From NCBI GenBank assembly GCA_003246475.1, contig QKAL01000103.1, forward strand, positions 1-42,613: a DNA stretch of 42,613 nucleotides. Reading direction: 5' to 3'. The stretch is from Lentisphaerota bacterium (GTDB taxonomy: Bacteria > Verrucomicrobiota > Lentisphaeria > Victivallales > SZUA-371). The position numbers were made by a program, and so were the translations under genes. Within the stretch, counting starts at the first letter, position 1; each line of letters opens with the position of its first letter. Positions 29,609 to 42,135 of this stretch are shown one piece after another. The notes beneath the pieces are model-generated. The model was not told where the DNA came from. It searched no databases and saw only the letters and a list, made by a program, of their open reading frames with translations.

Positions 29609-30616
29609 TTATACGAATTTGACGTTGGCAGCTTCGATCCCGGCGGCCGCTTTCAGATTCCCGATCGCATATGCCTCATTCTGGCTGATGTAATCGGCGA
29701 CGCGGTTTTTCTTCGGCTCGTCAGCGCTCTGGCGACGGAGACTGGTCCGCTGATAATACAGCTGGAGATTCTTCGGATCCGTAACCAGCAGCCCGTTTTC
29801 CGGGAACTGCGGGACAATTACCGAACGCAGACCGCCGTAGGATTTGCCGAGGATCTGGAAGTTGACCTTTTCGGTCGGGGTTTCGGCGTGTTCGCCCAAA
29901 ACCTTGTTCATGTCATGCGCCACCAGCTGCTGGCCGATGATCACCACTTCGCGACCGGTACGGTGTTCCTGGGGAATCAGACTGGAAACATCATAGACCA
30001 GCTGGTCGATGTTCTTGTAATCGCCGGTTGCCCCGATCTGGATCTTACCGGCTTCTACTGCTCCGGTGGTCAGATAGTTTTCGGCGTTATTGGTCTTCAG
30101 GTCGTAAATCCAGCCCTTATTGACATCCTGCAGCTTCGGATTGGCAGCCCGATCCGTGGTGGCCGCGGCAGACATCCCAAACCAGCCGATCAGAATGCGG
30201 TCCAGCGCGATCCGGCGATATACCGCGTTCATGTAGCGCTGGCGGAAATTCTTGTAACGCGCCCAGGCGTCGAGCAGCGAATAGAGAATGCCGACGTCGA
30301 AATTGGTCTGTTTGCACTCGTACTGGCGACCGTCCGGAGCACCGGCCATCTGCGGCTGGCGTTCGCCGTCCCCGGTCGTATCGGTACGTCCGGCCACGGT
30401 ACTGTGGATCTGCATGTCCAGGACTTCGCCCTTGATGTCATCCACCGGGATGATTGAAATTTCCGACAGAAAAGCGTCGGACTCCTGAATGGCGTCGTTC
30501 AGCAACTGCGCCATCGGCTCGGTAGCGGAAAACTGCGCGGTCGCACTGTCCACGTCATATGCCTTGGCCATGGCCGCCAGCATCTGGTTGAATAAAAGTC
30601 TGGTCTCTCTACGCAT
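29609..30616 (-). CDS. major capsid protein GpN (P2 family)
   Basis: MRRETRLLFNQMLAAMAKAYDVDSATAQFSATEPMAQLLNDAIQESDAFLSEISIIPVDDIKGEVLDM. Confidence 0.9.
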   Translation of the reverse strand: MRRETRLLFNQMLAAMAKAYDVDSATAQFSATEPMAQLLNDAIQESDAFLSEISIIPVDDIKGEVLDMQIHSTVAGRTDTTGDGERQPQMAGAPDGRQYECKQTNFDVGILYSLLDAWARYKNFRQRYMNAVYRRIALDRILIGWFGMSAAATTDRAANPKLQDVNKGWIYDLKTNNAENYLTTGAVEAGKIQIGATGDYKNIDQLVYDVSSLIPQEHRTGREVVIIGQQLVAHDMNKVLGEHAETPTEKVNFQILGKSYGGLRSVIVPQFPENGLLVTDPKNLQLYYQRTSLRRQSADEPKKNRVADYISQNEAYAIGNLKAAAGIEAANVKFV

Positions 30617-31682: not shown

Positions 31683-33455
31683 ATGAAATACACCGATGAA
31701 CAAAAAGACGAAGCCAAAGGGCTTTTTCTGAAAGGCGCGACGGCGCCGGAAATTTCCGAGCGGCTCGGGATTGAGCGACGGACCGTATACAACTGGGTCA
31801 AGGACGGGAATTGGGACAAGTCCGTCAACAAGGAAGACACCCTGTACACCATCCGGAAGCGGATCCGGTTGCTGGCCGAACGCGAAAATAAAACCGAACT
31901 GGAAATTCACGAACTCGACCACCTGATCGAAAACCTGATCAAGCTGGAAAATCTGCAGGCCAAACTGGTGGCCAAAGCGATGGATCAGGAATCTGACCAC
32001 GGTGGCGCCGCCGATTCCGGCACCCCCAGGAAGAAAAAGCACAAGCCGCGGAAAAACGACTTTTCCGGGATCAACTTCGACGATCTGATGGAGAAATTCC
32101 GGGACGGACTTTTCGGCTATCAGCTTGACTGCTGGGAACATCGTCACGAGCGGACGCGCAACATTCTGAAAAGCCGTCAGGTCGGGATGACCTTCTATTT
32201 TGCCCGGGAGGCGTTCACCGACGCGCTGTTGACCGGCGACAACCAGATTTTCCTGTCGGCCTCCCGCGCCCAGAGCGATGTGTTCCGTGCCTACATCAAA
32301 ACGTTTGCCCTGGAATGGTTCGGCATCGATCTGACCGGCAAAGACACCATCGAACTGATCACGCCGCACGGTACCGCCACCCTCTATTTCCTTTCCACCA
32401 ATTCGGCCACGGCGCAGAGCTATCACGGCCATGTCTATATCGATGAATATTTCTGGATCCCCAAATTCGCCACCCTGAAGAAAGTGGCCACCGCCATGGC
32501 CAGCCAGAAAAAGTGGCGGAAAACCTATTTTTCCACGCCCTCGGCCAAAAGCCACGAGGCCTATCCGATGTGGTCAGGCGATGAATTCAACGAACGGATG
32601 AAACGCGCCAACAAGCCGGTGATCATTTTCCCGTCGCGCGATGAGTTGCGGAAAAACGGCATCCGCTGCGCCGATCTGCAGTGGCGCAAGATCATCACCA
32701 TCGAAGATGCGGAAGCCGGCGGCTGCGATTTGTTCAACATCGAGGAACTGAAGCTCGAATATTCCGAGGACGAATTCCGGCAGCTGTTCCAGGCGTATTT
32801 CATCGACGACACCTTGTCGGTGTTCCGGTTCTCGCAACTGGAAAAATGCCTGGCGGATCCGGCGGAATGGAAATTCTACAATGCGGAAAACTCTCCGCCA
32901 TATCCCGGACCGGTGTGGATCGGCTACGATCCCAGCCGCACCCGCGACGGCGCCTGTATCGTGGTTCTGGCGGCGCCGCTGAAGACCGGCGGCAAATTCT
33001 ACGTCCTGGAAAAGATTATGCTGCGTAATGTCGCCTGGCAGTTTCAGGCCTCAACCATCAAGGAGCTGTATGATAAATACGGCAGCCAGGTCGAACACAT
33101 CGGCATCGATTGCACCGGACCGGGTTCCGGTGTGCTGGAACTGGTCCAGCGCTTCTATCCCGCTGCGGAAGGTATTTACTACACCCCGGACAAAAAGACC
33201 AAGCTGGTATTGAAAGCGCAACAGGTTGTGGGTGACGGACGGATCGAGTGGAACATCGAGTGGTCGGATATCGCGGCCGGGTTCATGATGATCCACCGGT
33301 GTGTCAACGGCAGCGGTCAGATCAGCTATGTGGCCGACCGCAGTGATCTTTCCGGCCATGCCGACGCCGCCTGGGCAATCATGCATGCCCTGATTCATGA
33401 AGATTTGATCCTTCCCAACGAGGATGAAGACTGTACGTTTGTTCTGGCGGGATAG
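31683..33455 (+). CDS. terminase large (ATPase) subunit GpP family
   Basis: MKYTDEQKDEAKGLFLKGATAPEISERLGIERRTVYNWVKDGNWDK; NILKSRQVGMTFYFAREA; VYIDEYFWIPKF; WIGYDPSRTRDGACIVVL. Confidence 0.93.
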   Translation: MKYTDEQKDEAKGLFLKGATAPEISERLGIERRTVYNWVKDGNWDKSVNKEDTLYTIRKRIRLLAERENKTELEIHELDHLIENLIKLENLQAKLVAKAMDQESDHGGAADSGTPRKKKHKPRKNDFSGINFDDLMEKFRDGLFGYQLDCWEHRHERTRNILKSRQVGMTFYFAREAFTDALLTGDNQIFLSASRAQSDVFRAYIKTFALEWFGIDLTGKDTIELITPHGTATLYFLSTNSATAQSYHGHVYIDEYFWIPKFATLKKVATAMASQKKWRKTYFSTPSAKSHEAYPMWSGDEFNERMKRANKPVIIFPSRDELRKNGIRCADLQWRKIITIEDAEAGGCDLFNIEELKLEYSEDEFRQLFQAYFIDDTLSVFRFSQLEKCLADPAEWKFYNAENSPPYPGPVWIGYDPSRTRDGACIVVLAAPLKTGGKFYVLEKIMLRNVAWQFQASTIKELYDKYGSQVEHIGIDCTGPGSGVLELVQRFYPAAEGIYYTPDKKTKLVLKAQQVVGDGRIEWNIEWSDIAAGFMMIHRCVNGSGQISYVADRSDLSGHADAAWAIMHALIHEDLILPNEDEDCTFVLAG

Positions 33456-37633: not shown

Positions 37634-38065
37634 TTATTCATAATGAGCCTTGAACAAACCAAGTTGCCCTTTTAACGGACGGAACGGCAATTCGATGGAG
37701 GCGGCAAGCAACCAGTGTTTTTGTCCGGGAGCCGCCCAGCGACTGGGACTGTTATCAACAATATCAATCAGCGAAGTCTGGCCGATAATACCGCCGAATT
37801 CGCCTTTAGTTGGTTTTGAACGTGCTGGAGTATCACCGAACACGACGCCGAAATGTTCGACAACCATTTTCCCAACTGTTGCCGCCTTGGCCTCTTCCAC
37901 CCAGTAAAAAAACTCCCAATCAAACGATTTCCCTGCATGAATCAGTAGCGGTCCACGGTATGCCGTCGCCCATGTACGGTTCTCGACATCCTTTCGCATG
38001 TCCGGAGGGAGTTGTTTGGTTACGATCAGCCACGCCCAGGGCTGTTTAATTGACAGGCATTTCAT
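37634..38065 (-). CDS. ASCH-domain protein
   Basis: MKCLSIKQPWAWLIV...VENRTWATAYRGPLLIHAGKSFDWEF; FGGIIGQTSLIDIVDNSPSRWAAPGQKHWLL. Confidence 0.85.
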   Translation of the reverse strand: MKCLSIKQPWAWLIVTKQLPPDMRKDVENRTWATAYRGPLLIHAGKSFDWEFFYWVEEAKAATVGKMVVEHFGVVFGDTPARSKPTKGEFGGIIGQTSLIDIVDNSPSRWAAPGQKHWLLAASIELPFRPLKGQLGLFKAHYE

Positions 38066-39498: not shown

Positions 39499-39963
39499 TT
39501 ATCTAAAGAGAATGTTTTCGCGTTGTTGATACGCCTGACAACATCCAAGGGCAAACCGTTTAGTTGTTTCGTACCACTGTGAATAATCAGGATCATCCTT
39601 ACTCTGACGGATAATCAGCAATAATCGCAGGGCAATTTTGCCAGCATTATGCCAGCGGATGCAGCCGTCACAATCAGAATGATCCAGCAATATCTTGAGT
39701 GGATCAGAAATTGATTGCCAAGATATGCCTTTGCAATCCTGCATATGCCGCAGAACTTGATATCCTGAATGCAACGGTTCATTATAACAGTCTGCGCCAA
39801 GTTGTTTCCGTATCGCGTCAACTTCCTCCGTGGTTACATAATAGCCGGTGTGTCCTTGCATCATATCCAGCGGCAATCCGATTTGCTTTGCCAGCCAAAT
39901 GCGCCAGTAATTAAAAGTATGGAATCCGCCATGATAACAATCATGTGTGATGTCAAGCCCCAT
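39499..39963 (-). CDS. hypothetical phage protein with HSDCDG motif
   Basis: MGLDITHDCYHGGFHTFNYWRIWLA...LLDHSDCDGCIRWHNAGKIALRL. Confidence 0.65.
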   Translation of the reverse strand: MGLDITHDCYHGGFHTFNYWRIWLAKQIGLPLDMMQGHTGYYVTTEEVDAIRKQLGADCYNEPLHSGYQVLRHMQDCKGISWQSISDPLKILLDHSDCDGCIRWHNAGKIALRLLLIIRQSKDDPDYSQWYETTKRFALGCCQAYQQRENILFR

Positions 39964-40282: not shown

Positions 40283-40420
40283 TTATTTTTTCGGTTTGGC
40301 TACGTTAAACATCTTGCGTTCCCGGAACTCTTCCAGCTTGCCTTTGTTCCAGTTGCACGTCGGTCGGAAGTAGCCGCACACCCGGCTAAACACTTCCGTG
40401 GGCTGTCCACATTTACTCAT
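40283..40420 (-). CDS. stand-alone protein resembling the C-terminal glycyl-radical tail of anaerobic ribonucleotide reductase (NrdD)
   Basis: MSKCGQPTEVFSRVCGYFRPTCNWNKGKLEEFRERKMFNVAKPKK*; NrdD-tail pattern RVxGYxRPxxNWNxGKxEEFxxRK; SD AAAAAAGGA upstream. Confidence 0.7.
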   Translation of the reverse strand: MSKCGQPTEVFSRVCGYFRPTCNWNKGKLEEFRERKMFNVAKPKK

Positions 40421-40436
40421 GATACTTTTTCCTTTT

Positions 40437-40673
40437 TTATTGATATTCAATGGTGTCGCACTTGCGGCAACGCATCCGGTTCTGGCCGGAATGGGGATGG
40501 ACGCCGTCCGGCCGAAATTCATGTCCGCCGGTTTTCAGGCAAACCGCCACGTCCAGCTGGCGTATTTCCGATATCAGCTTGTTAGCTTCGCTGTTCAATT
40601 CGAGCACGCGAAGCTGCCGGGCATTCATGGCCGCATACAATTCGTCCGGCGTTGCCTGGGGATCGATGTACAT
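40437..40673 (-). CDS. hypothetical protein with C-terminal CxxC
   Basis: MYIDPQATPDELYAAMNARQLRVLELNSEANKLISEIRQLDVAVCLKTGGHEFRPDG...MRCRKCDTIEYQ. Confidence 0.6.
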   Translation of the reverse strand: MYIDPQATPDELYAAMNARQLRVLELNSEANKLISEIRQLDVAVCLKTGGHEFRPDGVHPHSGQNRMRCRKCDTIEYQ

Positions 40674-40674
40674 C

Positions 40675-42135
40675 TCAAACCTCCAACATGCTTTGAGGTA
40701 CGGGGATTTCATTGATCGCGGACATCATGTATTCATCCCATTCCAGGTTCAGCAGCTTGCAGACCTCGAGCGCGGCATCGATGGACAAATCAGCCAGCCG
40801 AGTTTCCGATTCGCATTTGATCGCCTGACCGATGTCGCCTTTGATCCAGCGCCACTGCCGCCGGGTAATTTCCTTCATCGGCGCGGCCATGGCGGCCGCC
40901 AGACTGTCGAGGCCCGGCTCGAAGGGACAATCATCCTGCCAGCCGCCGATGCTGTCGACGCCGCGCAAGCCGATCAGACGGACCAACGTTTCGAGATCCG
41001 GCTCCGGCAGTTCGTTATTCAGGATATGTTCGTACAGCTTTTCCAGGGCGCGTTTCCAGCGGCGTTTTTCCAGACGTTCAACCGGATCCTCGACGATCAC
41101 CGGCGCGGCAGTACCGCCGGAGGAAGGGGCGGCGGTATCATTCTTTCGGATCCGGCAGTAAGTCCCGGCGCCGTCACCTCCGACGATATAGGCGTTGGCT
41201 TCCGCTTCCGGAACATCATTGTCCAGAATTTCAAAGTCATGCTTGTCGACGGAACCGAACTTTGGTTTTTCGTTGTAACAATAACTGTTGGTGACCAGTT
41301 CGATTTTTCGTTCCGGCTGAGTCTTGATCACTTTGACTTCGGCCTGGACGGCGGCGGCGGTTTTACGGTCCCAGCATTTGGGATCGAGACACCGGTCTTC
41401 TTCCGGATCCTTCAGTTCATCGAACAGCCACGGTTCGGCCAGCGACCGATGCGGACAATCGGCACATTCGCCGGTGGGGAATCCGGCATCGAGCAGCCGC
41501 CGGCAGAAATATTTATCCAACATGAAGGTAAAATTCTCGACGCTGCCGGGATGATCGAAGGTGCCAGGCTGATGGAACCCCTTGTGCAGATGTTCCTGGA
41601 CGGAGGCAGGGAAGCGGCTGATCGCGGCGTAATGCCCGATCTTCATTGCCGGGAAGCGCTCTTTCATCATGGCGTCCATCCAGTACGGAATCAGACTGCA
41701 GAACTGCAGCCGCAGCCGGATGTATTTTTCCGACCGGCCCAGCAGCGAGGCGATTTCCGCGACGTCATAGCGTTCCCGGAGCTGACTGAGCTGTGCAACT
41801 TCCTCCGTCAACGCCACCGCCCGGCGTTCGAAGTTTTCGACAAAGGAAATAAGTTCCGGATCGTCGGTGTCCAGCAGCCGGTAGTGGTCTGCCGGCAGCT
41901 CGTACCGTTCCAGGAGCATCAGTGCCAGGAAGCGGCAGCGTCCGGCGATGACGTCATATTTCTTGCCGTCGATTTCCGGTGCCAGCCTGGCCAGCGTGAT
42001 CGGATTAATCAGACCGGTGTTGCCGATCGACGCCGCCATGCTCTTGACGTCGTCGTCGGTGATCTCGCGGTTCTTGACACAGCGGATCTCGTTCAGGTTA
42101 ATGTTTACAGGAACTTTCGCGGTTGCCTTTTTCAT
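40675..42135 (-). CDS. ParB/sulfiredoxin-fold nuclease domain protein
   Basis: NLNEIRCVKNREITDDDVKSMAASIGNTGLINPITLARLA...YDVIAGRCRFLALMLL; HTH-like YDVAEIASLLGRSEKYIRLRLQF. Confidence 0.85.
   Translation of the reverse strand: MKKATAKVPVNINLNEIRCVKNREITDDDVKSMAASIGNTGLINPITLARLAPEIDGKKYDVIAGRCRFLALMLLERYELPADHYRLLDTDDPELISFVENFERRAVALTEEVAQLSQLRERYDVAEIASLLGRSEKYIRLRLQFCSLIPYWMDAMMKERFPAMKIGHYAAISRFPASVQEHLHKGFHQPGTFDHPGSVENFTFMLDKYFCRRLLDAGFPTGECADCPHRSLAEPWLFDELKDPEEDRCLDPKCWDRKTAAAVQAEVKVIKTQPERKIELVTNSYCYNEKPKFGSVDKHDFEILDNDVPEAEANAYIVGGDGAGTYCRIRKNDTAAPSSGGTAAPVIVEDPVERLEKRRWKRALEKLYEHILNNELPEPDLETLVRLIGLRGVDSIGGWQDDCPFEPGLDSLAAAMAAPMKEITRRQWRWIKGDIGQAIKCESETRLADLSIDAALEVCKLLNLEWDEYMMSAINEIPVPQSMLEV

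Follow-up and report, generated by a model that had tools for sequence, protein, structure and literature searches.

The window, by which we mean the whole stretch of 42,613 nucleotides analysed here, is a bacterial contig with a P2-like prophage, recognizable by its P2-family capsid, terminase, portal, tape measure and Baseplate_J proteins. Among the genes of this prophage lies a very short ORF that matches the C-terminal end of the class III (anaerobic) ribonucleotide reductase NrdD. The features needed to follow the analysis are given below with their coordinates in the window.

29609..30616, minus strand: P2-family major capsid protein of the prophage (PF05125, E value of 5.6e-104)
31683..33455, plus strand: terminase large subunit of the prophage (Terminase_6N/6C and Terminase_5, gpP-like)
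40283..40420, minus strand: free-standing NrdD glycyl-radical tail of 45 amino acids, MSKCGQPTEVFSRVCGYFRPTCNWNKGKLEEFRERKMFNVAKPKK (Pfam NRDD and TIGR02487 matches)
40373..40375, minus strand: codon of the presumed radical glycine, Gly16 in RVCGY, aligned to the NrdD radical glycine
40409..40411, minus strand: codon of Cys4 in KCG, by alignment the presumed fourth zinc-ribbon ligand of NrdD
40430..40434, minus strand: AAGGA, a Shine-Dalgarno-like sequence upstream of the tail start (direct reading)
40437..40712, minus strand: upstream phage gene of 91 amino acids with a C-terminal, CxxC zinc-ribbon-like stretch (Pfam scan and ORF reading)
40675..42135, minus strand: ParB-like phage protein heading the tail's gene run (PHROGs ParB-like, 1.6e-13)

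The ParB-like protein also matches Pfam ParB_N at 1e-5, slightly below the cut-off, and a gene shaped like the 91-amino-acid upstream gene precedes a tail on another contig of the host genome, C188, as well. A protein identical to the tail is carried by a viral contig in IMG/VR (L046), which, together with the P2-type structural genes around the ORF, bears out the first-pass annotation of this DNA in calling the protein phage encoded. Two further small phage genes in the window, at 37634-38065 and 39499-39963, match PHROG 3193 (9e-36) and PHROG 11026 (2e-13), respectively, both without an assigned function.

The tail ORF starts with ATG, with AAGGA located 9 bases 5' of the start in the upstream sequence AAAAAAGGAAAAAGTATC. 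There is also a longer in-frame ORF of 79 amino acids (40283-40522), but this overlaps the upstream gene, and homologues of the phage tail begin at the identical M-[SA]-K-C-G, so that 45 amino acids is the correct length. Scanned against Pfam and NCBIfam up to an E value of 1, the tail matched only NrdD families. The sole Pfam family was NRDD (PF13597), matched over its last 37 positions (526-562 of 562) with 39.6 bits and an E value of 3.6e-10, above the curated gathering cut-off of 26.2 bits; NCBIfam TIGR02487 was matched at positions 545-579 of 581, and the Gly_radical family of the pyruvate formate-lyase type was not matched. A profile search of PDB sequences with the tail returned weak NrdD matches only (E values of 0.3-0.4); by itself, the tail does not have the length for a strong match. 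The core motif of the tail occurs once in the window and in none of 50 shuffles. The ORF shares with the glycyl-radical domain of class III NrdD the residues CG and E.YSR..GY.RP...WN.GK..EF..R, including the radical glycine, and its Cys4 aligns with the last cysteine of the CPxCG knuckle in full-length NrdDs. It differs from ordinary NrdD in being free-standing and 45 amino acids long, without the catalytic barrel that holds the radical cysteine; in the host, a separate gene encodes the catalytic chain, which stops short of this segment. Among the listed ORFs of the window, we recognized neither a catalytic NrdD nor an NrdG. Direct reading and profile searches therefore agree with the first-pass annotation on the position and sequence of the ORF and on its match to the extreme NrdD C terminus only, and the family match and the conserved glycine support its view of the protein as a free-standing glycyl-radical tail; its statement that the window holds no catalytic partner agrees with our reading of the listed ORFs, and a genome search places NrdD elsewhere. 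What the window alone could not reveal is that the NrdD of the host is itself divided at this point.

NrdD is thought to keep its radical and its active site in one chain. To see how the enzyme is encoded in the host, we searched the whole genome to which the window belongs (315 contigs, 78% complete), which holds four free-standing tails and one large NrdD. The large protein, on contig C9, is a 668-amino-acid NrdD with an ATP-cone and NRDD positions 1-525, ending in SICPVHGYIPGVHAECPLEADGNTDFKVVNN followed by a TAA stop. After a 90-nucleotide gap and a GGAGG, it is followed by a 51-amino-acid tail ORF, MSKCGAQTEVYSRVCGYFRPVTNWNKGKKEEFKDR, and then by NrdG2; the phage tail gene in the window adjoins neither a large NrdD nor an NrdG. 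Given that TIGR02487 covers the large ORF at positions 1-544 and the 51-amino-acid ORF at positions 545-580, the two ORFs add up to precisely one NrdD. They are divided within the second knuckle of the zinc ribbon, so that three presumed ligands (C..H..C) belong to the large chain and a single cysteine to the tail. Of the presumed ligands, the phage tail likewise has Cys4 alone; large chain and tail may complete a zinc site together, and some viral tails have no such cysteine. The phage tail is 67% identical to the C9 tail. A second host tail (C60:13014-13148; L011:6988-7149), 64% identical to the phage tail, lies where its contig ends, next to metabolic genes and a radical-SAM-like gene; it may be a chromosomal orphan, or it may belong to another split NrdD that the end of the contig interrupts. 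No class I or class II ribonucleotide reductase was found in the window's genome, at its 78% completeness, or in that of Victivallis vadensis, so that the supply of deoxynucleoside triphosphates (dNTPs) in these organisms seems to depend on class III.

The split is not peculiar to this genome. In all 21 split loci read in this order (the host and 20 more), the large ORF ends just after H..CP, and the tails are separate ORFs, usually with a visible Shine-Dalgarno sequence. Across these loci the frame of the tail relative to the large ORF is 0, 1 or 2, which rules out readthrough or sequencing error as a general cause of the split; recoding or programmed bypassing over the host stop is ruled out by this difference in frame between species and by the tail's own ribosome-binding site. 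Split NrdD was found in V. vadensis DSM 14823 (L221), in Malonomonas rubra and Geothermobacter hydrogeniphilus, and in several metagenome-assembled genomes of Desulfuromonas, Pelobacter and Geopsychrobacter. Relatives of a Desulfuromusa genome yielded about 32 split NrdDs and not one intact, and the 80 named loci that were fetched gave 36 split, 26 full-length and 20 orphan tails. Within one order, as seen in 60 relatives, full-length and split NrdD both occur. On one phage contig there is a complete split NrdD with NrdG (L105:6001-6120 plus the ORF before it), broken only after a full zinc ribbon; since the bacterial break is within the ribbon, splitting has probably occurred more than once. 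Because the host and most of its near relatives encode NrdD as two pieces, the phage tail has its paralogue in an ordinary subunit of the host. With neither a large NrdD nor an NrdG beside it, it is a homologue of the small subunit of a two-piece NrdD that acts, if at all, in trans.

We searched 12 orphan-tail genomes whole, and in all nine with a recoverable large NrdD this protein was split, the other three holding contig-broken pieces only. Among the 60 relatives, orphan tails occurred in 15 of 31 genomes with a split NrdD versus 2 of 23 with full-length NrdD only (Fisher p of 0.003, from hand assignment and ignoring kinship). In the two exceptions the orphan tails are on short contigs with the phage cassette described below, and these contigs may be mis-binned. 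Viral orphan tails are also nearer to split-type than to full-length tails in 71 versus 13 of 84 decided cases, a count of likeness in tail sequence to which the first scan contributed a bias towards split-type tails because its pattern contained SRVCG.

These observations bear on the first-pass proposal that the phage protein is a spare part for, or a means of retuning, the host NrdD. The notion of a free-standing tail stands, and that of an orphan part for an ordinary NrdD does not, given that the host NrdD is split and has a dedicated tail gene. GrcA-like repair is a close rival, no longer the leading reading. In this case, the phage tail would chiefly replace tails, or C termini of full-length NrdDs, that oxygen has cleaved at the glycyl radical, so that dNTP synthesis could go on after exposure to oxygen. 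GrcA and its phage T4 counterpart Y06I set the precedent for this with pyruvate formate-lyase, and spare parts have been predicted for further glycyl radical enzymes (PMC8683613); replacing a detachable tail would cost little, and V. vadensis has two full-length NrdDs besides its split one. However, the host already possesses a tail gene of its own, orphan tails go with split rather than full-length hosts, and we saw no oxygen-linked gene neighbours, the recurrent neighbours of viral tails being replication genes. We therefore regard repair as the chief role as unlikely, while noting that it is compatible with subunit substitution, the two not being mutually exclusive. V. vadensis (G019/G066) offers a natural strain for comparing the roles of spare part and subunit, with full-length NrdDs on C1 and C6, each adjoining NrdG, a split NrdD on C44, and an orphan tail.

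To gain an idea of how widespread and how conserved the viral tails are, we scanned IMG/VR with a pattern free of the glycine, which yielded 341 relatives; about 71 of the best 80 are short free-standing ORFs. The glycine, whose conservation among homologues had been singled out as a check, is present in 72/72 homologues gathered by the glycine-blind pattern. Pooling both scans gave an alignment of 104 distinct viral orphan tails, 102 of which cover the glycine position, and all 102 have the glycine, followed by Tyr (84) or Phe (18). The residue before it is variable (72 Cys, 22 Val, 5 Thr and 2 Ser), while E10, R14, R20-P21, W25-N26 and R36 hardly vary, which is also the case in full-length NrdD. 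This pattern disfavours the repurposed fold that had been offered as an alternative. Several viral forms (the ANMV-1 virus, L089, L113 and L116) do bear other CxxC zinc-ribbon-like N termini, as would be expected of a small zinc-ribbon protein without a glycyl-radical role. Nevertheless, the glycine, arginine, Arg-Pro, Trp-Asn and a further arginine are near-invariant just as in NrdD, and the viral tails L107, L168 and L187 retain the glycine motif yet have no cysteine at the zinc-knuckle position, making a mere zinc-ribbon function very improbable. Given these three tails, a common zinc site cannot be universal.

In pairwise comparisons of viral tails (41 pairs, 36 codons each), dN/dS was 0-0.05 for the closest pairs, with a median of 0.28, which points to purifying selection on close pairs. 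This selection rules out that the ORF is the 3' remnant of a decayed full-length nrdD acquired by the phage, as do the more than 100 distinct copies in viruses, many of them at a fixed place in the gene order, the ORF's own start and Shine-Dalgarno sequence, the start site kept in homologues and the lack of an upstream nrdD remnant. The match to the C terminus alone is what such decay would leave, and signs of it, which had been named as evidence that would count against a functional tail, were looked for; given the above, we attach next to no probability to this origin.

In some 25 viral loci, the tail has one set position within a conserved replication and recombination cassette, in the order PD-(D/E)XK nuclease (DUF3799), ParB_N protein, AAA_24 ATPase, tail, DUF669, RusA and DEAD helicase. 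Judged by gene content, such a module is a place where a function in dNTP supply would be expected. The phage in the window has a different tail neighbourhood, without this cassette. On one phage contig, the AAA_24 ATPase adjoining the tail (L300:1145-2971) has an intein-like insertion after the P-loop region. Tails are rare among named phages: 3 of 50,697 records match, among them that of the ANMV-1 virus, with a 144-amino-acid protein annotated simply as anaerobic ribonucleoside triphosphate reductase. In this virus of an uncultured archaeon, the NrdD tail follows another CxxC...CxxC ribbon (L014:5686-6120), and about 4 kb away a DUF5131 protein (phage Gp37/Gp68; L014:10160-10822) has a weak radical-SAM match.

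For a structural view of the two pieces, a related split NrdD of the same order (L242) was read through its single TAA and modelled by AlphaFold with full-length and large-chain relatives. The fused model has a mean pLDDT of 81.5 with a disordered linker, and the tail forms a hairpin and a short helix with moderate confidence (pLDDT of about 54-72). Foldseek returned NrdDs as the best matches, with that of Prevotella copri on top, mostly reflecting the large subunit. The model agrees with docking of the tail onto the large chain, but it is no test of docking, since the full-length relatives in the input carry the tail placement. In the P. copri enzyme, the tail domain contains a structural zinc and a short helix along with the radical Gly711 and the conserved Tyr712; dATP exerts its effect by making this glycyl-radical domain disordered (PMC11226230). 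As dATP disorders this very domain, a differing tail could change feedback, and the phage tail, being merely 67% identical to the host's, might thus retune or inhibit the host NrdD or NrdG by displacing the host tail, soaking up the activase or escaping dATP feedback. That viral orphans keep the residues of full-length tails, including the radical glycine and the Tyr or Phe next to it, argues instead for a working tail, and an inhibitor would not require the glycine; we hold retuning or inhibition to be improbable.

Taken with the split host enzyme, the presence of the tail gene in phages makes it probable that the virus fits the host enzyme with a tail of its own. Based on gene and protein sequence, we consider it likely that the phage tail is an exchangeable glycyl-radical subunit given to the split NrdD of the host, securing dNTPs. 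The host enzyme would consist of two polypeptides, a large one with the ATP-cone, the barrel and the first three presumed zinc ligands, and a tail of about 50 amino acids that contributes the remaining zinc cysteine and the radical glycine as well as a C-terminal anchor. The glycine loop of the tail would enter the barrel, with the split zinc ribbon helping to clamp the tail; NrdG2 would install the glycyl radical, and the tail would hand it on to the active-site cysteine. From a gene cluster of early type, a replicating prophage would then provide its tail, which would join the host large subunit, so that dNTP synthesis would be secured or raised. The sequences themselves show the split and how well it is kept, the phage copies, the unchanging glycine, the selection and, for related viral tails, the setting among replication genes; from these we infer binding, radical formation, the common zinc site and a benefit to the phage. 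A wider reading, to which we give somewhat less than even credence, is that of a widespread two-polypeptide class III ribonucleotide reductase with an exchangeable radical subunit and an interchain zinc ribbon, for which many phages of anaerobes would supply tails and so gain control of dNTP synthesis in the host, possibly escaping dATP feedback.

Several known systems resemble parts of this arrangement. GrcA (YfiD) and Y06I are likewise small free-standing glycyl-radical proteins, found in bacteria and in phage, that match the C terminus of a large enzyme. Y06I, the GrcA-type spare part for pyruvate formate-lyase encoded by phage T4 (PMC8683613), is the closest precedent, which the first-pass annotation had missed. 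In contrast to GrcA, of about 14 kDa and of the pyruvate formate-lyase-type Gly_radical family, the phage tail has 45 amino acids and belongs to the NRDD family, and its partner NrdD is constitutively split, making the tail a normal subunit and not a repair part alone. The split class II reductase NrdJa/NrdJb of Pseudomonas also pairs a barrel chain with a C-terminal chain containing a zinc finger, but class II uses B12 and no glycyl radical, and its tail sequence is unrelated. We know of no phage copies of the NrdJ C-terminal chain. In phages, nrdD split by introns, inteins or fragmentation has been described (Dwivedi et al. 2013, PMC3653736); there the whole nrdD is interrupted, whereas here the phage has the tail only and the split in the host has a fixed place, the zinc ribbon. 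In a literature search covering few subscription journals, neither a split bacterial NrdD nor a free-standing NrdD tail turned up. GrcA-type free-standing proteins and split reductases such as NrdJab are each known, and we did not find the two-piece NrdD with phage tails described.

A 2022 phylogeny of the ribonucleotide reductase family discarded sequences shorter than 400 amino acids (PMC9531940), and our reading, if true, would account for database entries of small length that bear the name anaerobic ribonucleoside-triphosphate reductase and that this filter removed. It would also mean that, in whole groups of anaerobes, an essential enzyme consists of two pieces with a plug-in radical subunit of roughly 50 residues, turning an oxygen-sensitive cofactor into one that is cheap to replace and providing a clean two-part system for studies of glycyl-radical installation and transfer. 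For the phages, the tail would be a very small viral means of taking over nucleotide metabolism.
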